A stretch of 64,000 nt of DNA, taken from a virus. A program made the translations under genes and the position numbers. The DNA is taken from positions 1 to 64,000 of the IMG/VR virus record IMGVR_UViG_3300009085_000028; one strand, written 5' to 3'. Under the pieces are notes generated by a model. That model worked only from the letters and a program-made list of their open reading frames with translations. It did no database searches and was not told where the DNA came from. Numbering within the stretch: the stretch's first letter is position 1; each line of letters opens with the position of its first letter. Positions 16,148 to 42,560 of the stretch are shown piece after piece.

Positions 16148-17233
16148 ATGCGTACTTTAGCATCTATTCAAAAAATTGTAGCTATTAATCCTATCCAAAA
16201 TGCAGATAAAATTGAAGTTGCTACTGTACTAGGATGGGAGTGTGTAATTGCCAAGAAAGATAATCTTAAAGTTGGTGACCTAGTAGTTTATATTGAAATT
16301 GATTCTATTGTACCAGATAAACCAGAATTTGAATTCTTGCGAGAACGTAAATTTAGGGTACGAACTATTAAACTTCGTGGTCAAGTTTCTCAAGGTTTAG
16401 TACTACCATTATCTGTATTACCAAATAAAACTTGGAAAGAAGGAGATGATGTTACTGATATTATTGGTGTAAAGAAATATGATCCAGAAGGGGAAGAAGA
16501 AGAAAAAATTGCAAAGGCTTTATCTTATAAAGAAGATAATAAAATTAAAAAGTATCTGCTACAAAATAAATGGTATCGTAAATTATTCTTGAAAAAGGAA
16601 TGGCGTGGTTGGCCTAAGTTTATTGCTAAAACGGATGAAACGCGTATCCAAAATTTTCCAAATTATTATGATAGGTGGAATGATCGTTTATTTAGTGTAA
16701 CAGAAAAATTAGATGGGCAATCTGCAACTTATTTTTTAGTTAAAGATGGATTTTTTATTTTTACTAAATATCATTTTGGTGTTTGTAGTCGTAATATGCG
16801 TAGAGGTAAACCAGATAATAGTAGTTATTGGGAGGTTGCTAAGAAATATAATATTGAATCTATTCTACGAGGTCTAATTAATAATCACAAGTTTGTTGCA
16901 ATTCAAGGTGAAATTGTAGGCCCAAGGATTCAAGGAAATAAATATGGATTAAATGAAAATCAATTCTTTGTATTCAATCTTATTTATCCAGGTACTTCTT
17001 ATCCTATCGTTAGTGGTCTAGCAAAAAATATTCTAGAAAAAGAAGGATTAAATTTCGTACCAGTTTTAGATCAAGTATTTGAATTACTTCCTACTATGCA
17101 AGAAATGGTAGAATATTCTAAAGGTAGATCTGTAATTAATCCTGATGTTACTAGGGAAGGAATTGTAATGCGTTCTGGTGGAATTAGTTTCAAAGTTATT
17201 AATCCTGATTTTCTTTTGGAGCATGGTCTATAA
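16148..17233 (+). CDS. Rnl5-type RNA ligase (DraRnl-like), 361 aa
   Basis: N-terminal OB-fold-like region (about 1-110) followed by a nucleotidyltransferase domain: motif I EKLDGQSA with the nucleophile Lys187, a motif III-like FFVFNLIY, motif IV EGIVMRS and motif V SFKVIN. The order, with the OB fold first, is that of the Deinococcus DRB0094 RNA ligase group, which seals nicked RNA in duplexes. It should repair cleaved RNA; a natural target is anticodon-nicked tRNA or the tRNA-like RNAs of this phage (inference). AAGGAGG upstream. Confidence 0.85.
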   Translation: MRTLASIQKIVAINPIQNADKIEVATVLGWECVIAKKDNLKVGDLVVYIEIDSIVPDKPEFEFLRERKFRVRTIKLRGQVSQGLVLPLSVLPNKTWKEGDDVTDIIGVKKYDPEGEEEEKIAKALSYKEDNKIKKYLLQNKWYRKLFLKKEWRGWPKFIAKTDETRIQNFPNYYDRWNDRLFSVTEKLDGQSATYFLVKDGFFIFTKYHFGVCSRNMRRGKPDNSSYWEVAKKYNIESILRGLINNHKFVAIQGEIVGPRIQGNKYGLNENQFFVFNLIYPGTSYPIVSGLAKNILEKEGLNFVPVLDQVFELLPTMQEMVEYSKGRSVINPDVTREGIVMRSGGISFKVINPDFLLEHGL

Positions 17234-26670: not shown

Positions 26671-26854
26671 CTTGTTCCTCCTTACTAGCTGGCTTACCTT
26701 CAAACAGATTTCGCAAATAGGATCGGAATTCAAATAACCACTTCTGTTCTGCTTCCGTAGAATCCATACTAACAATTGGGAAATCCTCAATAACTGCTCT
26801 TTCCTTTCCATCTTCTTCTTCAACACTTATCTTAATTAGGTATGCTATACTCAT
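26642..26854 (-). CDS. Hypothetical protein, paralogue of 26449 gene, 70 aa
   Basis: N-terminal beta-like segment (MSIAYLIKISVEEED) then a helix sharing TEAEQKWL with its neighbour. Overlaps both the methyltransferase gene end and its paralogue's start. Function unknown. Confidence 0.55.
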   Translation of the reverse strand: MSIAYLIKISVEEEDGKERAVIEDFPIVSMDSTEAEQKWLFEFRSYLRNLFEGKPASKEEQDDSNLRDAL

Positions 26855-27788
26855 CGTTTATCCTTTCTACTGCTAATGAAAAATAATGTTCACTCTTTTC
26901 GATACCAACGAAATCAAATCCTAGATTTTGACAAGCTAATCCTGTAGTGCCTGTTCCAAAAAATGGATCTAATACAATTCCATCTGTTGGAGTAACTAAT
27001 GTTATTAAGTACTCCATAAGTGCTTTAGGTTTCACAGTCGGGTGATTACAAGCAATTCCTTTTTCTTTCTTAGAAGGTTTAGCACAATAGAAAAACCTGG
27101 ACTTATCATCAAGAAATTCATCTTCTAAAAGTAAATTACTAGGCCATCTACCCTGTGTGTTTATTGTTTGCTCATAGTCTGGCCTAATCTCCTGACCAAA
27201 GCCCGACCACTTTTCTAGTTTATTAATTGGTACTACTTCATCATCTTGAATAGGAATTCTACTCTCTCCAATATTGAGTCCGCCTGTACCAAATAAATCT
27301 TTATTAGCTCTATTTGTTTTTTCAGAAATTGGTTTTCTCGCCATAACAATAGGTTCCAGAGCAGGCTTGAGAGCAGTACCCCACCCATCACCAAGATCGT
27401 GAGACTTTGGAAATCCTTGACCATATAACCATCCTATCATATCCCTAATTTCAAATCCAGCGTCTTCAATTGCTACTGCAATTCTATGATAAGTTCTAGC
27501 CCCACCAAAGGCTAGTAAATAAGCGCCGGGTTTCATTACCCTTAGAACTTCTTTCCAGAATGTAGGATCTTTTTCAATGCCTGTACCATCCCACTCTTGT
27601 CCTAGGAAACCTTTAGATAGTCTACTAAATCTACCATCTTTTCCTTGTTTGGCTGGTGCTGAATTCTCATTACCAAATCTTTCTGTAATAGAAGTTAGAC
27701 CATACGGTGGATCAGTTACGCAAGATGCGAAATAATTTTCTGTAAAGCATTGTAATACTTCCCTGCTATCACCCTTGATTATTTGCAT
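26832..27788 (-). CDS. DNA adenine-N6 or cytosine-N4 methyltransferase, 318 aa
   Basis: Catalytic DPPYG at 26-30 and the SAM-binding DPFFGTGTTG near the C-terminus, in the order of class beta amino-methyltransferases. I choose the ATG at 27788 because AAAGGAGG precedes it; the longer frame runs through the tRNA region. Reaction is N6-adenine or N4-cytosine methylation; the Tyr in DPPYG occurs in both. No nuclease partner. Confidence 0.85.
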   Translation of the reverse strand: MQIIKGDSREVLQCFTENYFASCVTDPPYGLTSITERFGNENSAPAKQGKDGRFSRLSKGFLGQEWDGTGIEKDPTFWKEVLRVMKPGAYLLAFGGARTYHRIAVAIEDAGFEIRDMIGWLYGQGFPKSHDLGDGWGTALKPALEPIVMARKPISEKTNRANKDLFGTGGLNIGESRIPIQDDEVVPINKLEKWSGFGQEIRPDYEQTINTQGRWPSNLLLEDEFLDDKSRFFYCAKPSKKEKGIACNHPTVKPKALMEYLITLVTPTDGIVLDPFFGTGTTGLACQNLGFDFVGIEKSEHYFSLAVERINDEYSIPN

Positions 27789-27807
27789 TACTACCTCCTT
27801 TGATTTA

Positions 27808-27890
27808 AATAAAAAGTCCCCCCTGTTTGAATTGAACAAACTCCTGCTCCTTATAAGAGAGACGTACTGAACCTTTATACTAAGGGGGGT
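27808..27890 (-). terminator. Possible terminator or structured leader after tRNA-CAU
   Basis: On the minus-strand RNA, CCCCCC (complement of 27884-27889) can pair with GGGGGG (complement of 27818-27823), followed by ACTTTTTATTTAAA and then the AAAGGAGG of the methyltransferase. A GTTTG/CAAAC inverted repeat lies in the loop. The post-hairpin TTTTTATTTAA is the same element found after the plus-strand hairpins. Confidence 0.45.
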
Positions 27891-27892
27891 TA

Positions 27893-27963
27893 TGGCGGGA
27901 GTGAGATTCGAACTCACGTAGCAAGGTTATGAGCCTTGTAAGTAACCACTACTTTATCCCGCT
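27893..27963 (-). tRNA. tRNA with CAU anticodon (Met or Ile2)
   Basis: A full cloverleaf is readable on the minus strand: acceptor AGCGGGA/TCCCGCC, D stem AAGT/ACTT with GG in the loop, anticodon stem CAAGG/CCTTG around CTCATAA, 4-base variable loop, and T arm GTGAG-TTCGAAT-CTCAC. The first acceptor pair is an A-C mismatch, an initiator-like feature, but the anticodon stem lacks the three G-C pairs of initiators. No CCA is encoded. It could be elongator Met or lysidine-modified Ile2. Confidence 0.85.
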
Positions 27964-27969
27964 ACGTAT

Positions 27970-28263: not shown

Positions 28264-28337
28264 CGCCCCAGGAGAGATTTGAACTCTCATCGTCCGTTAT
28301 GCACCACATGCTTAGAAGGCAGGGCCAATACTAGGGC
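28264..28337 (-). tRNA. Non-canonical tRNA or tRNA-like RNA
   Basis: The minus strand gives a 7-bp acceptor stem (GCCCTAG/CTGGGGC, one wobble) and a perfect T arm (GAGAG-TTCAAAT-CTCTC), total 74 nt, normal tRNA size. The D and anticodon arms do not fold normally. The best anticodon loop, CTTCTAA (anticodon UCU), would leave a 7-nt D region and an 18-nt variable region; a GUG reading has a stem mismatch. It is either a degenerate tRNA or a tRNA mimic. A promoter and a hairpin lie immediately upstream. Confidence 0.5.
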
Positions 28338-28371: not shown

Positions 28372-28400
28372 ATTATATCACAACATTATTCAGTTGTCAA
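28372..28400 (-). promoter_or_regulatory. Sigma70-type promoter, minus strand
   Basis: TTGACA (complement of 28395-28400), 17-bp spacer, TATAAT (complement of 28372-28377): perfect consensus. It lies inside the end of the small basic gene at 28386 and points into the tRNA-like RNA at 28264. Confidence 0.8.
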
Positions 28401-29552: not shown

Positions 29553-29581
29553 ATTATACAACACTTCTAGTGTGTTGTCAA
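29553..29581 (-). promoter_or_regulatory. Sigma70-type promoter with operator-like repeat
   Basis: TTGACA (complement of 29576-29581), 17-bp spacer, TATAAT (complement of 29553-29558). The spacer holds an inverted repeat, ACAACAC-N7-GTGTTGT, overlapping the promoter core, a position suited to repression. Confidence 0.85.
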
Positions 29582-33789: not shown

Positions 33790-33909
33790 TTAGTAATAAC
33801 GATAGTCATACAGACCACACGAAGAACACCTGTATGCGTGTCCAATTAGTTTTCCGTAGTTATTATAAACATAATGACTGAATACCCAAATATGATAACA
33901 CTCGTTCAT
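33790..33909 (-). CDS. Small zinc-knuckle protein, 39 aa
   Basis: Begins MNECYHIWVFSHYVY and ends in YRCSSCGLYDYRYY. The ATG overlaps the helicase TGA (ATGA), and the frame fills the gap to the resolvase gene. Two Cys/His pairs could bind zinc. Confidence 0.5.
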   Translation of the reverse strand: MNECYHIWVFSHYVYNNYGKLIGHAYRCSSCGLYDYRYY

Positions 33910-35207
33910 TTCTTACTTACCTTCAATGTATCTAATCCAAAATTATACCAAAGAGATCCTGTTGGACCATTACGGTGTTTCCTAATGATATGTTCCATCT
34001 CACCTTTGTTTAGAGACTTCTGATTATAATAGTCATCTCTGTACAAGAACATAACCAGGTCAGCATCTTCTTCAATATTACCAGACTGTCTCAAATCAGA
34101 TAATACAGGTCGTTTATCTTCTCTTAGTTCTACCGCACGATTTAGCTGTGAGAAAAGAATGGTTGTGATACCCAACTCATTCGCCAAAATCTTTCCCATG
34201 CGAGTAAAGCGACCAATCTCCGCAGTTTGGTTAGCGTCTCTTTCTGAAGCTAATTGGATGTAATCAAAGAAAACAATTCTTGTCCCTTTAGTCTTATTGT
34301 ACTTACGTACCATAGATGCAAAGTATTGATCATCGGTATCAAAGTTAGTATCAATGTATAATGGCAAGTCTTTTAGTTTCTTGATTGTCTCAGCCACTTT
34401 CTGTAGCTGATCATTAGAGATTGTACCTAGTCTAATATCTGCTAGTGGTACGCCCGACTCCATTGAAACCATACGTTCTGTTAAGCCTATCTTATTCATT
34501 TCTAGAGAGAAGATTTGTACAGATTGTCCCTTACCCTCTTGCTGTAAACTCTTAGCAACCTCAACGGCGGAGTTACACATTACAGCGGTCTTACCCATAC
34601 CAGGACGACCAGCAATGATCCATTCATCACCAGCAACGTAGCCTCCCGTAATGAGATCGGTAGCATCAAAGCCAGTAGGAATACCACGAATACCGGGGTT
34701 TCTTACTCTGTTTACTAGGTCTGTCCACATACCTTCTAGGGCAGTACCTAGATTGACTACTTGCTCACCACCCTCTGTTTGGTCTAAGCTATCTAGATTG
34801 TGCTTTAGATCACTGATAACTTTATCAACATCCCCTCCCTCAAATACTTTGGAATTGATTGTTGATCCAATCTTGACTAGTGACCTAGCCCTGTAACCAT
34901 TTCTTAGTTGCTTTTCATATTCCTTTTGGTTACTCTTATCAAACTGTAGGTTCTTGATGTGTAAAATATAATCAGCGCCACCAGCATCTCGTAGCTTACC
35001 CTTACTATCTAGATAAGAGCAAACCATTGAATACTCTGGTATCGCGTGTTCAGCCACAATCTCAGTAATTGTTTGTGCAATTAGTTGGTGAGATCCGGTG
35101 CTGAACATAAAAGGTTTGATTGTAGAGTTGAACGCAGTATCAGGATTATTTAGAATAATACTTAGAACTGCTAACTCTGAGTCGTTCATAAACAAATCAT
35201 TTGTCAT
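33906..35207 (-). CDS. dnaB: Replicative DNA helicase, DnaB family, 433 aa
   Basis: N-terminal DnaB domain (NDSELAVLSIILNN), RecA-like core with Walker A IIAGRPGMGKTAV, FSLEMNK, Walker B VFFDYIQLA, and SQLNRAVELR/DLRQSGNIEEDAD followed by IIRKHRNGPTG, which are the usual DnaB motifs H1-H4. It unwinds DNA at the phage fork with the separate primase. ATG at 35207 behind GGGAG. Confidence 0.93.
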   Translation of the reverse strand: MTNDLFMNDSELAVLSIILNNPDTAFNSTIKPFMFSTGSHQLIAQTITEIVAEHAIPEYSMVCSYLDSKGKLRDAGGADYILHIKNLQFDKSNQKEYEKQLRNGYRARSLVKIGSTINSKVFEGGDVDKVISDLKHNLDSLDQTEGGEQVVNLGTALEGMWTDLVNRVRNPGIRGIPTGFDATDLITGGYVAGDEWIIAGRPGMGKTAVMCNSAVEVAKSLQQEGKGQSVQIFSLEMNKIGLTERMVSMESGVPLADIRLGTISNDQLQKVAETIKKLKDLPLYIDTNFDTDDQYFASMVRKYNKTKGTRIVFFDYIQLASERDANQTAEIGRFTRMGKILANELGITTILFSQLNRAVELREDKRPVLSDLRQSGNIEEDADLVMFLYRDDYYNQKSLNKGEMEHIIRKHRNGPTGSLWYNFGLDTLKVSKK

Positions 35208-35565
35208 CAAATGGACTCCCTATATTGATTGGTAATTTCACGCCGTTTATTTTATCAAGCCTTTGCTTTACTAAATCGACCAAAGAATTTGGAGGAACTA
35301 CCTCGCGCTTTTCTAGCTGTTTCTTACAAACATAGGTAAGTAACCCGACAATGTTTGTATGATTTAGATCGCTATTAGAAGAAATTTCTACTATAGAACT
35401 GAATACAGTTTTCCTACCATACAGTTTAACTAAACGATTGAACATTTTTATATGCGTTACAGAAAATGGTAACTCAAAAATTTCGCAATAGAATTTAGTA
35501 AGAAGTAGTCCAGGATTTGTATCTTCCTCCAATAATGACAAGTAGTGTCCAATTACATTTTCCAT
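35197..35565 (-). CDS. Hypothetical protein, possible helicase loader, 122 aa
   Basis: Helical; FSVTHIKMFNRLVKLYGRKTVFSSI and a late DLVKQRLDKING. The small protein immediately upstream of, and overlapping, dnaB is often a loader or primosomal adaptor, which is the only basis for that suggestion. GGAGG upstream. Confidence 0.55.
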   Translation of the reverse strand: MENVIGHYLSLLEEDTNPGLLLTKFYCEIFELPFSVTHIKMFNRLVKLYGRKTVFSSIVEISSNSDLNHTNIVGLLTYVCKKQLEKREVVPPNSLVDLVKQRLDKINGVKLPINIGSPFDDK

Positions 35566-35584
35566 GATCCTCCTTTATAACAAA

Positions 35585-35695
35585 GTTGGTGAGAAGGACT
35601 CGAACCTTCTCTAAGAACGGGATTATATCCAGATGACTACGGGATATTTATGTTAGGCCAGAACAACCGTTCGGTTTTTCCGTAGTCTCACCAAC
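35585..35695 (-). ncRNA. Large tRNA-like structured RNA between ssb and helicase operon genes
   Basis: The minus strand gives a 9-bp terminal stem GTTGGTGAG/CTCACCAAC and a canonical T arm GAAGG-TTCGAGT-CCTTC next to it. The interior is 111 nt overall, too long for a tRNA and without a standard D arm or anticodon arm. Instead GACTACGG pairs with CCGTAGTC to make an 8-bp internal stem enclosing an AACC-GAAC-GGTT hairpin. The extra pair at the end of the acceptor is a tRNA-His-like feature. It starts seven bases after the ssb stop. Confidence 0.5.
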
Positions 35696-35701
35696 CAGAA
35701 A

Positions 35702-36481
35702 CTAATTGTCGAACAAGTCTGCCATCTGGTTAGATAGCTCACTCGAAGGGGTGGAAGTTGTCTTCGTCATTTCCCTACGAGCCGCAAAAATATCAGACAG
35801 ATTTACACCGCGAAGTAGATCCTGAATTTCGTTTACCTTTAGAACGATGATAGCCTTTTCTAGATCGAATAGCTGATCTTCTGGAACAGTAACAACATCA
35901 TTCTTTTCTGGAAGTGGGCTAGCTACGGGAGCAGTTTTGCCACCCATTGCTAAAACGTTTAGATCGAAGTTCTGAATACCAATTGGTGTCTGCGTTTCCT
36001 CATCAAGAACTGTGGCATTATGAAAATCTAGCTGTTCAAAAAACTGCTTGCCTTTTGATAGAACCTTTACTTTGTTTAGTGGTGCGGCTTTTACTTCTGC
36101 TAAAGAAGCATTGCACTTTGGGCATGAGCCTGGGAACAGTCCGTTTACTTTCTTTACTTCTGCCTGACACTTTGCACATACCTTGGTAGGAGTACGGTCA
36201 AGCACGTTTAGATATGCAACCTGCCGCCTAGTAACAAAACCAGGGATTGTTGAGATATTCTTTTCGCTAGGATTTTCTGCACGTAGTCTAGTATTGTTAT
36301 TACAGATTGGGCATTCATCCCCTAGACATTTAATTGTAGCGCCACGAATGTAATGAGTATCATGTACTACAGCTTTTTCAGTAAGAATACGAAGGATATG
36401 TGATCCCGGAGAGAGATCAATAAACTCTGTTCTGCGAAAATTAGATTGTTTATTTGGAGTACGAAAGTCTGCCAACGACAT
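35702..36481 (-). CDS. Zinc-containing ssDNA-binding protein, 259 aa
   Basis: Positioned with RecA and helicase. Two Cys clusters: CLGDECPIC near 49-57 and CAKCQ...CPKC near 104-125; between them an OB-like region. The C-terminus ends with acidic MADLFDN, typical of the protein-interaction tail of SSBs such as gp32. Very likely the phage SSB. Confidence 0.75.
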   Translation of the reverse strand: MSLADFRTPNKQSNFRRTEFIDLSPGSHILRILTEKAVVHDTHYIRGATIKCLGDECPICNNNTRLRAENPSEKNISTIPGFVTRRQVAYLNVLDRTPTKVCAKCQAEVKKVNGLFPGSCPKCNASLAEVKAAPLNKVKVLSKGKQFFEQLDFHNATVLDEETQTPIGIQNFDLNVLAMGGKTAPVASPLPEKNDVVTVPEDQLFDLEKAIIVLKVNEIQDLLRGVNLSDIFAARREMTKTTSTPSSELSNQMADLFDN

Positions 36482-36774: not shown

Positions 36775-37783
36775 CCAGTTCTCCTTCCGTTTCAGATTGA
36801 TTATTGTATTTACCTACGATATTATAGCACATTTCTTTTATTTTGTCAAGTACCTCTTGATTACTTTCAAGAAAATCCATTGTGGCTACAACACCTTTAC
36901 CTAGCATTGTTTCTCCAAAACGATAATATGGACCAGCCTTTTGCAATACACCTAGAAACTCTGCATAACTAATTAGATCCCGCATACTATCAATTCCTTT
37001 ACCAAAGATAATAGGAATTAGATACGATCTAAAAGGTGGAGCCATTTTATTCTTTTTGATTGTAAACTTAGTCATAATACCAATTGTAGATTCTCCGGCT
37101 TTTATTTCTTGAGCCTTGGAAATTGGAATTAGTAAACTAGAATAATGCAATAAAGCGTGACCTCCCGGCATTGTGTAGGTTTTTACATAACTACCAATAC
37201 TATCCCTAACCTGATTGATAAATAAAATAGCAATGTTTTTCTCACGAACCTTATAGGCATTTCTACGGAAGAACTTAGAAAGATCTCTAGGAATGATTGC
37301 CATTGTTGACTCATCAAACTTCTTTTCCATTTCTTCAGGCGTAGCTAGGGCGGCAATTGAATCTAGCACAACCAAACTAAAGTCGCCAGAATTTATAGCC
37401 GCCTCTAAAATATTGAAAGCATCATCAGAAGTTTCTGGTTTAGATATTGTGAATAAACCACCATCACTAAATGATTCTCCTAGTAGCTGTTCAATATAGT
37501 CCATGAACATTTGGTTCTCAACATCAATGTATAAAACGCGCTCACCTTTTCGCATTGCTTCTCTACAGATTGATAGAGCGATTGTACTTTTACCACTTCC
37601 CTCTGGCCCGTAGATAGTGGTAAATCTTCCCTTTGGAATACCACCAATACCAATGCTAGTATCTAGAGAAAGTGCCCCGGTTGGAATTGGTTCCACCTTA
37701 TCCTCTCCGGTAATAAACACCTTGTTGTAATCATCACCATAAAGATCCTGCATCTTATCTGTAAACGTTTTTGCTTTAGCCAC
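36767..37783 (-). CDS. recA: RecA-type recombinase, 338 aa
   Basis: Walker A YGPEGSGKSTIALS (about 48-60), Walker B VVLDSIAAL, loop FINQVRDSIG and PGGHALLHYSS. Promotes strand exchange. Start GTG behind GGAG. Length near bacterial RecA. Confidence 0.92.
   Translation of the reverse strand: MAKAKTFTDKMQDLYGDDYNKVFITGEDKVEPIPTGALSLDTSIGIGGIPKGRFTTIYGPEGSGKSTIALSICREAMRKGERVLYIDVENQMFMDYIEQLLGESFSDGGLFTISKPETSDDAFNILEAAINSGDFSLVVLDSIAALATPEEMEKKFDESTMAIIPRDLSKFFRRNAYKVREKNIAILFINQVRDSIGSYVKTYTMPGGHALLHYSSLLIPISKAQEIKAGESTIGIMTKFTIKKNKMAPPFRSYLIPIIFGKGIDSMRDLISYAEFLGVLQKAGPYYRFGETMLGKGVVATMDFLESNQEVLDKIKEMCYNIVGKYNNQSETEGELDE
36821..36849 (-). promoter_or_regulatory. Sigma70-type promoter at the end of recA
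   Basis: TTGACA, 17-bp spacer, TATAAT (complements of 36844-36849 and 36821-36826) within the last codons of recA, driving the hypothetical gene, ssb, the tRNA-like RNA and dnaB. Confidence 0.8.
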
Positions 37784-41069: not shown

Positions 41070-41415
41070 TACGTACTGCCTCCCTTATTTTGATTAGTTC
41101 TTCTAGTGGCCTCTTTGTATCTGTTTCATAAACAATTCTTGCTGGCTCTCCATCAACCAAACCTTCTTCTGCATGAACAAGTCTTACAGGCTGAACTTGA
41201 ATAGCTCTACTGAATTCATCAGACTGTTGACATTCTTTTATTTTTGTGATATAATTAATTTCTTTATCACTTAGTTCTTTATTGTTCATTAGTTTATAAT
41301 AAATAACAATTAGATTATTCCTCACATCCTTTAGCTCAAACAAATCTTCTACAAGGTGAAGTCTACCATTATCATAAATAAGTAGACCGGCTACTACATC
41401 CTTTAAGTTTTCCAT
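41053..41415 (-). CDS. Hypothetical protein, 120 aa
   Basis: AAAGGAG upstream. Contains DNGRLHLVEDLFELKDVRNNLI and a central VRLVHAEEGLVDGEPARI. Unknown. Confidence 0.6.
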   Translation of the reverse strand: MENLKDVVAGLLIYDNGRLHLVEDLFELKDVRNNLIVIYYKLMNNKELSDKEINYITKIKECQQSDEFSRAIQVQPVRLVHAEEGLVDGEPARIVYETDTKRPLEELIKIREAVRNGKAY

Positions 41416-42219: not shown

Positions 42220-42247
42220 ATTATAGCGAGTCTTTTTCATTTGTCAA
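42220..42247 (-). promoter_or_regulatory. Sigma70-type promoter, minus strand
   Basis: TTGACA (complement of 42242-42247), 16-bp spacer and TATAAT (complement of 42220-42225), overlapping the end of the zinc-finger gene and firing into the DUF3102-like gene. Confidence 0.75.
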
Positions 42248-42495: not shown

Positions 42496-42524
42496 ATTAT
42501 ATCACGACTTTTAAAGTTTGTCAA
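42496..42524 (-). promoter_or_regulatory. Divergent promoter, minus-strand arm
   Basis: TTGACA (complement of 42519-42524), 17-bp spacer, TATAAT (complement of 42496-42501). Back to back with the plus-strand promoter at 42532; drives the replication operon. Confidence 0.88.
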
Positions 42525-42540
42525 GGGGGTATTGACAAAC
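42516..42540. promoter_or_regulatory. Inverted repeat joining the two -35 boxes
   Basis: GTTTGTCAA-GGGGGTA-TTGACAAAC: 9-bp arms that contain both -35 boxes, 7 bases apart. RNA polymerase cannot easily occupy both sides, and a dimeric regulator could control both. Confidence 0.6.
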
Positions 42541-42560
42541 CCATTAGAATGTGGTATAAT
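42532..42560 (+). promoter_or_regulatory. Divergent promoter, plus-strand arm
   Basis: TTGACA at 42532-42537, 17-bp spacer, TATAAT at 42555-42560, followed by an inverted repeat CATAGT-N7-ACTATG at 42570-42588 near the transcription start, a possible operator. Confidence 0.88.

Follow-up and report, generated by a model that had tools for sequence, protein, structure and literature searches.

The DNA analysed here (hereafter the window) is a 64 kb stretch of a 70,393-base IMG/VR virus record, IMGVR_UViG_3300009085_000028. Judged by its predicted genes, which include a terminase, a portal protein, a DnaB-like helicase, RecA/UvsX, PolA, a GH25 endolysin and a ribonucleotide reductase, the source is a tailed phage. 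A 111-nt tRNA-like element occupies the intergenic space between an ssb-like gene, whose stop codon is 6 nt upstream, and a gene whose ATG is about 20 nt downstream, and it leaves the Shine–Dalgarno sequence of the latter intact (Table 1). All of the genes neighbouring the element are carried on the minus strand, in agreement with the co-orientation noted in a preliminary description of this DNA. The ssb-like protein had no match in Pfam, PHROG or PDB and its predicted model was of low confidence, too poor for a fold search, so that 'ssb' is a positional guess only; a fold search with the 122-aa protein encoded downstream likewise gave no match.

No consensus promoter of the element's own was found. 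Perfect TTGACA-N(16-18)-TATAAT sites occur seven times in the window compared with 0.22 expected, mostly with TG preceding the −10 box, and from their sequence are probably phage early promoters for host sigma-70. Elsewhere in the window, an RNA ligase with a PF09414 match and a PHA02142 OB-fold domain, which is absent from the related phages G001–G003 described below, may possibly have a tRNA-repair function, as judged from its domains. Adjacent genes for tRNA-Ile and tRNA-Met overlap the long-ORF start of a DNA methyltransferase, the true start of which is therefore probably further in.

Table 1. Positions of the features discussed in the text (window coordinates unless a genome or contig handle is given)
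Feature	Position	Strand	Remarks
Upstream ssb-like gene	35702..36481	-	Stop codon 6 nt ahead of element; name based only on position and Cys pattern
Whole tRNA-like element, 111 nt	35585..35695	-	5' end 35695, 3' end 35585
Acceptor 5' strand, G-1 (35695) and bases 1-7 (TTGGTGA)	35688..35695	-	Sequence, tRNA survey
Internal 8-bp hairpin, 5' arm GACTACGG	35680..35687	-	From element base 9; fold and shuffles
Internal 8-bp hairpin, 3' arm CCGTAGTC	35635..35642	-	37-nt loop between arms; fold and shuffles
Small hairpin GGAT-ATA-ATCC	35620..35630	-	Pair probability about 0.5-0.6
T arm GAAGG-TTCGAGT-CCTTC	35593..35609	-	Five perfect pairs; sequence and fold
Acceptor 3' strand TCACCAA and discriminator C73 (35585)	35585..35592	-	CCA not encoded, TTT next
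Shine–Dalgarno AAAGGAGG of 122-aa gene	35569..35576	-	8 nt past element
Downstream gene, 122 aa	35197..35565	-	All-helical, function unassigned; conserved adjoining helicase gene in relatives
DnaB-like replicative helicase	33906..35210	-	
Promoter-like TTGACA-17-TATAAT, perfect	36821..36849	-	Within recA; nearest consensus site upstream of element, same strand
Perfect TTGACA/TATAAT sites	28372-28400, 29553-29581, 36821-36849, 41227-41255, 42220-42247, 42496-42524, 42532-42560		Sequence pattern
RNA ligase	16148-17233	+	
tRNA-Ile and tRNA-Met	27816-27964	-	
DNA methyltransferase, long ORF	26832-27917		
tRNA-Arg(UCU) without D arm	28264-28337	-	Third tRNA of window; Rfam score only 29.9 bits
Further D-armless members	L158:4778-4858, L154:11346-11428, L145:4380-4460, G011:58976-59138, G007:104261-104339, G008:184057-184136, G008:180745-180822		Found by model

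The 111-nt tRNA-like structure proposed in the preliminary description is present, but on the reverse complement of the interval as it was given: the neighbouring genes are all on the minus strand, and only this strand yields the T loop TTCGAGT and can be read as the 3' half of a tRNA. In this direction the element consists of G-1, the acceptor strand TTGGTGA, GACTACGG, a 37-nt loop, CCGTAGTC, 25 nt with a small hairpin, the T arm GAAGG-TTCGAGT-CCTTC, TCACCAA and C73, and it is followed by TTTGTTATAAAGGAGGATC-ATG of the next gene. The T arm, the 7-bp acceptor and the G-1:C73 pair together form a perfect 13-bp minihelix. An acceptor-like stem of 9 bp had been proposed, of which eight pairs (G-1:C73 plus seven) hold and the ninth has to be given up: element base 9 is claimed both as the ninth acceptor base and as the first base of the hairpin, and base 103 both as the acceptor partner of base 9 and as the last base of the T stem. 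A 9-bp acceptor, a 5-bp T stem and an 8-bp hairpin thus cannot coexist, and the consistent reading is 8 + 5 + 8 bp. The perfect T arm, with its five pairs and TTCGAGT loop on the minus strand, and the internal 8-bp stem (pair probability 0.89–0.98 in the isolated fold) are as first described. The D and anticodon arms are gone from the interior, as also observed earlier, with no usable candidate for either in the right place, and the 8-bp hairpin with its 37-nt loop and the weak small hairpin are found there instead. GAACGG and CCGTTC are complementary and could form a pseudoknot that crosses the 8-bp stem.

The element exceeds chance expectation. Counting both strands of 64 kb, chance would produce 0.06 perfect 5-bp T arms with a TTC(R)A loop, and the combination of such an arm with a perfect 8-bp acceptor at a tRNA-like distance was not encountered in 2 Mb of simulated sequence, arithmetic giving about 1e-4 or less per window. 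Ten shuffled windows contained a single match to a tRNA descriptor, whatever its length, and 720 kb of unrelated viral contigs contained eight tRNA-like matches of ordinary length but no over-long one. An internal 8-bp stem flush with the acceptor arose in shuffles with P about 0.004. Folded in isolation, the minus strand had a z of −2.8 with none of 200 shuffles as stable, acceptor pairs 1–6 having a probability of at least 0.94 and pairs 7, 8 and 9 of 0.42, 0.27 and 0.02 respectively. When 60 nt of mRNA were included on each side, in a fold that ignores co-transcriptional folding and ribosomes, the T arm and the 8-bp hairpin persisted and the acceptor largely dissolved (about 0.08), its 5' strand pairing elsewhere.

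Profiles of RecA and the ssb-like protein led to three related phages, G001 (87 kb), G002 (42 kb) and G003 (86 kb, found through its ssb-like gene), with aligned ssb-like and RecA proteins that show 37–49% protein identity. None of the three has the element between the ssb-like and 122-aa genes. Between the same two genes (35566-35701 in the window), L003 has no gap, L124 a 103-aa gene and L002 genes of 67 and 355 aa; the contents differ among relatives, and the gap is thus a variable cargo site. About 30 tRNAs are scattered among the protein genes of G001 and G003, and abnormally long tRNA genes of 113 nt (G001:49372-49484), 98 nt (G001:18578-18675) and 125 nt (G002:5895-6020) are present, with intact acceptor, D and T arms and an insert of 25–50 nt near the anticodon, too short for a self-splicing intron. 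The tRNA genes of this group evidently undergo insertion and remodelling. The 113-nt gene is the sole tRNA-Cys candidate of G001 in an otherwise nearly complete amino-acid set, and was read by ARAGORN as Cys(GCA) with a 43-nt insert, UGC also being possible.

No homologue of the element was found in the phage, IMG/VR or GTDB-genome collections searched, so that a single copy is known. Against phages, blastn with the element and its flanking DNA matched only T-arm fragments of ordinary tRNAs, and the 122-aa and ssb-like proteins, each used alone in IMG/VR, likewise turned up no homologue. The exact 8-bp stem with a loop of 20–50 nt occurs at 85 places in IMG/VR, not one of which carries its own acceptor/T domain; a downstream T arm is present at four, all of which adjoin ordinary tRNA genes. 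The exact acceptor plus T loop is found nowhere in IMG/VR, and two places that matched it in 84,980 genomes were rejected, both lying inside protein-coding-like sequence without a tRNA.

With canonical tRNAs the element shares a 7-bp acceptor and a 5-bp T arm with a TTCRANY loop. The covariance model RF00005 found no tRNA within 35400-35900 even at E 10, Rfam as a whole gave no relevant match for the element at E 10, and ARAGORN called nothing at its default threshold or in its mitochondrial-type and tmRNA modes. No D arm was present in the right place within the element, and no anticodon arm with a 7-nt loop, U33 and a purine at position 37, a weak candidate having C37. The sole anticodon-arm-like remnant is GG-ATATAAT-CC, with the anticodon AUA and a stem broken by two mismatches, and GUG is absent outside the acceptor strand. 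The anticodon being lost, a histidine tRNA is ruled out, and we are confident that the element is no working tRNA of any kind.

At a threshold of 30–50%, ARAGORN does call a tRNA-Asn(GTT) with a 39-nt intron, that is, a tRNA from which an insert would be removed. The tRNA genes of 98–125 nt with inserts of 25–50 nt in the related phages, and the RNA ligase encoded by the phage itself, are in keeping with this. However, a D arm is missing, the loop has C37 and U38, the acceptor is mismatched in the Asn reading, the call disappears at the default threshold and insert sizes are far below those of self-splicing introns; moreover, the relatives with interrupted tRNAs have no match to RNA_ligase (PF09414) or RtcB. 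We therefore consider a removable insert extremely improbable.

A tmRNA combines a tRNA-like domain with a long helix instead of an anticodon arm, and the element is similar in having an acceptor and T arm with a longer helix filling the remaining space. Unlike tmRNA, it has no tag reading frame, no G3:U70 and no match to the tmRNA models of Rfam and ARAGORN, and this identity was rejected.

Where the acceptor came from is indicated by its end. The G-1:C73 pair is the identity pair of bacterial tRNA-His (PMC9976931). In a survey of 167 distinct phage tRNAs from the contigs analysed, C73 was present in four and G-1 in three, all of them tRNA-His(GUG), so that the combination was exclusive to tRNA-His and the resemblance to this tRNA raised in the preliminary description is borne out. 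The tRNA-His of G003 (G003:3608-3680) has the acceptor G-TTGGGTA/TATCCAA-C, and the element, with G-TTGGTGA/TCACCAA-C, is the same at position −1 and at pairs 1–4 and 7, has the same C73 and likewise lacks an encoded CCA. From tRNA-His to element, pair 5 goes from G-C to U-A and pair 6 from U-A to G-C; both differences are compensatory, and since each is changed on both sides, acceptor pairing has been kept. In contrast, the phage tRNA-His has D and anticodon arms, its interior does not align with that of the element and the element is about 37 nt longer. The G-1/C73 specificity and the acceptor similarity to the G003 tRNA make the element best read as tRNA-His-derived, and on this basis, namely two bases (G-1 and C73) plus acceptor similarity, an origin from tRNA-His is probable.

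Descent from tRNA-His is equally the starting point of the main rival to a functional reading, in which the element is an inert pseudogene: a decaying tRNA-His gene that still has its acceptor and T arm only because its decay began recently, and whose RNA is neither excised nor used. The single copy, its absence from the relatives and the other broken or interrupted tRNA genes that these relatives hold are as expected for such a relic. However, decay should also have struck the acceptor and T stem, in which 13 of 13 pairs are intact, and the new, perfect 8-bp interior stem set flush with the acceptor. An inert, recently decayed gene thus appears somewhat unlikely, although it is the strongest competitor.

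We also compared the element with the third tRNA of the window, a tRNA-Arg(UCU) that has no D arm. Its layout is an acceptor, a 7-nt linker TATTGGC, an anticodon arm with CTTCTAA, the 18-nt TGGTGCATAACGGACGAT, a T arm and the acceptor 3' strand, and a perfect TTGACA-17-TATAAT site (28372-28400, minus strand) ends 35 nt upstream. This layout is widespread in phages: pattern scans revealed it at 17 places in IMG/VR, and searches with blastn extended it to many isolate phages of Streptomyces, Pseudomonas, Mycobacterium, Rhodococcus and Alishewanella, the matching stretches often lacking a tRNA annotation or bearing another label such as tRNA-Ser or tRNA-OTHER. In an alignment of 23 members, double-change cells number 114 in the helices of the acceptor, anticodon arm and T arm compared with 32.5 in shuffles, and this excess of covariation supports the three helices. 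With a covariance model of the family, members score 71–87 bits and ordinary tRNAs reach no more than about 30. Further members found with the model, several per phage, have the anticodons UCU, CCU, ACG and UCG; one is an apparent tRNA-Ile(GAU) (G008:180745-180822), suggesting that the layout may extend beyond arginine.

In all eight distinct classes of the family, the last bases of the linker pair in register with the bases before a conserved UAA-(Y)-GGA (first two positions 16/16, P 0.001; first three, P 0.0002); testing for a duplex without a fixed register gave no significant result (P 0.22). The register suggests that a short 'D-stem-like' helix would enclose the anticodon arm, with a D-loop-like GG(A) moved to the 3' side. 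No account of the family in phages turned up in a literature search, although this does not prove that none exists, and from its sequences the family looks like a new tRNA layout, stranger than the 111-nt element.

The element could in principle be a divergent, enlarged member of this layout, with the 8-bp hairpin in the position of the anticodon arm. The CTGGA after its hairpin recalls the TAA-(Y)TGGA of the family, and the post-hairpin CCGTAGTC-AT-CTGGATATAAT resembles members such as GTAGTAATTGGAACTGAAAT. Nevertheless, the match is short, there is no 7-nt anticodon loop and 10 extra nt precede the T arm; in addition, the family model R1 did not match the element at E 1, its only hits in the window being the tRNA-Arg at 81 bits and, at 15 bits, a canonical tRNA. 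Membership is accordingly very improbable.

The reading that we prefer, to which we give about an even chance, is that the element is a remodelled tRNA-His relic, carried as cargo in the ssb-helicase operon, and a substrate of RNase P and RNase Z. Cleavage by RNase P requires no more than an acceptor and a T stem-loop (PMC11143913), and in its sequence the element has this anatomy, the acceptor being stacked on the T stem-loop with a 5' leader. The element would be transcribed as part of the ssb-helicase mRNA, host RNase P would make the 5' cut in front of G-1, and the end after C73 would come from RNase Z or else from exonucleases with subsequent CCA addition; we infer these cuts because both enzymes read the acceptor/T domain. 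A small RNA would thereby be freed, with the ssb message ending 6 nt past its stop codon and the helicase message beginning 19 nt before its ATG with an intact ribosome-binding site. Cleavage by RNase P close to a phage ssb gene is not without precedent: among mRNAs, that of T4 gene 32 (the T4 ssb) was the first for which it was reported (PMC11143913). Points against this reading are the absence of homologues from the collections searched, the loss of the acceptor in the fold with flanking mRNA, and the possibility that ribosomes terminating at the ssb stop codon, 6 nt upstream, cover the element; for its role as a processing site taken alone we consider the case evenly balanced. That the minihelix is kept by selection as operon punctuation for the RNase P and RNase Z cuts, with the excised RNA receiving CCA and being charged with histidine, is a stronger proposal and in our view distinctly unlikely.

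A freed RNA could alternatively act as a histidine-accepting decoy or regulator, which would receive CCA, be charged by HisRS and, by binding HisRS or EF-Tu, affect host or phage translation. HisRS efficiently charges 13-bp minihelices with G-1:C73 (PMC9976931), so that the freed element, which has exactly such a 13-bp domain, might be histidylated. Mini HisT, a D-armless tRNA-His made in E. coli, is accepted by HisRS, EF-Tu and the ribosome (PMC11551756); at 62 nt it keeps its anticodon arm, whereas the element has neither this nor a D arm. The anticodon, a secondary HisRS determinant, is thus absent from the element and conservation is lacking, and a decoy role seems quite improbable.

As a tRNA-derived, non-decoding phage RNA, the element has its closest known system in T4 species 1 RNA (rnaC, 139 nt), a small stable phage RNA adjoining the T4 tRNA genes (AF158101). 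Both are phage-encoded and longer than a tRNA, and rnaC, too, has at its end an acceptor-like 3' strand preceded by a perfect T arm (CCGGG-TTCGAAT-CCCGG). They are not homologous in sequence, the 3' T arm being what they have in common; unlike the element, rnaC sits in a tRNA cluster rather than between protein genes and has no G-1:C73, and by inspection only five of seven positions pair between its 5' end and the 3' strand. The tRNA-like structures of plant viruses resemble the element in their acceptor/T-type domain, possible −1:73 pair and recognition by tRNA enzymes (PMC9976931), but they are located at the 3' ends of RNA-virus genomes, whereas the element lies within an operon of a DNA phage and has a plain acceptor/T stack.

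Taken as a whole, the origin from tRNA-His is well supported on sequence grounds, and RNA processing is plausible from the anatomy. If it is not processed, the element would be a snapshot of phage tRNA gene decay, in which the interior goes first and the acceptor and T domain last. In mitochondria, tRNAs serve as punctuation at which polycistronic messages are cut; if the element is processed, the phage would be using a tRNA remnant in the same way, to separate a single-strand-binding-type gene from a helicase gene within one polycistronic message. The freed RNA would then also be a minihelix that occurs in nature, is encoded in DNA and has histidine identity but lacks an anticodon, a natural counterpart of the synthetic ones with which tRNA evolution is studied.
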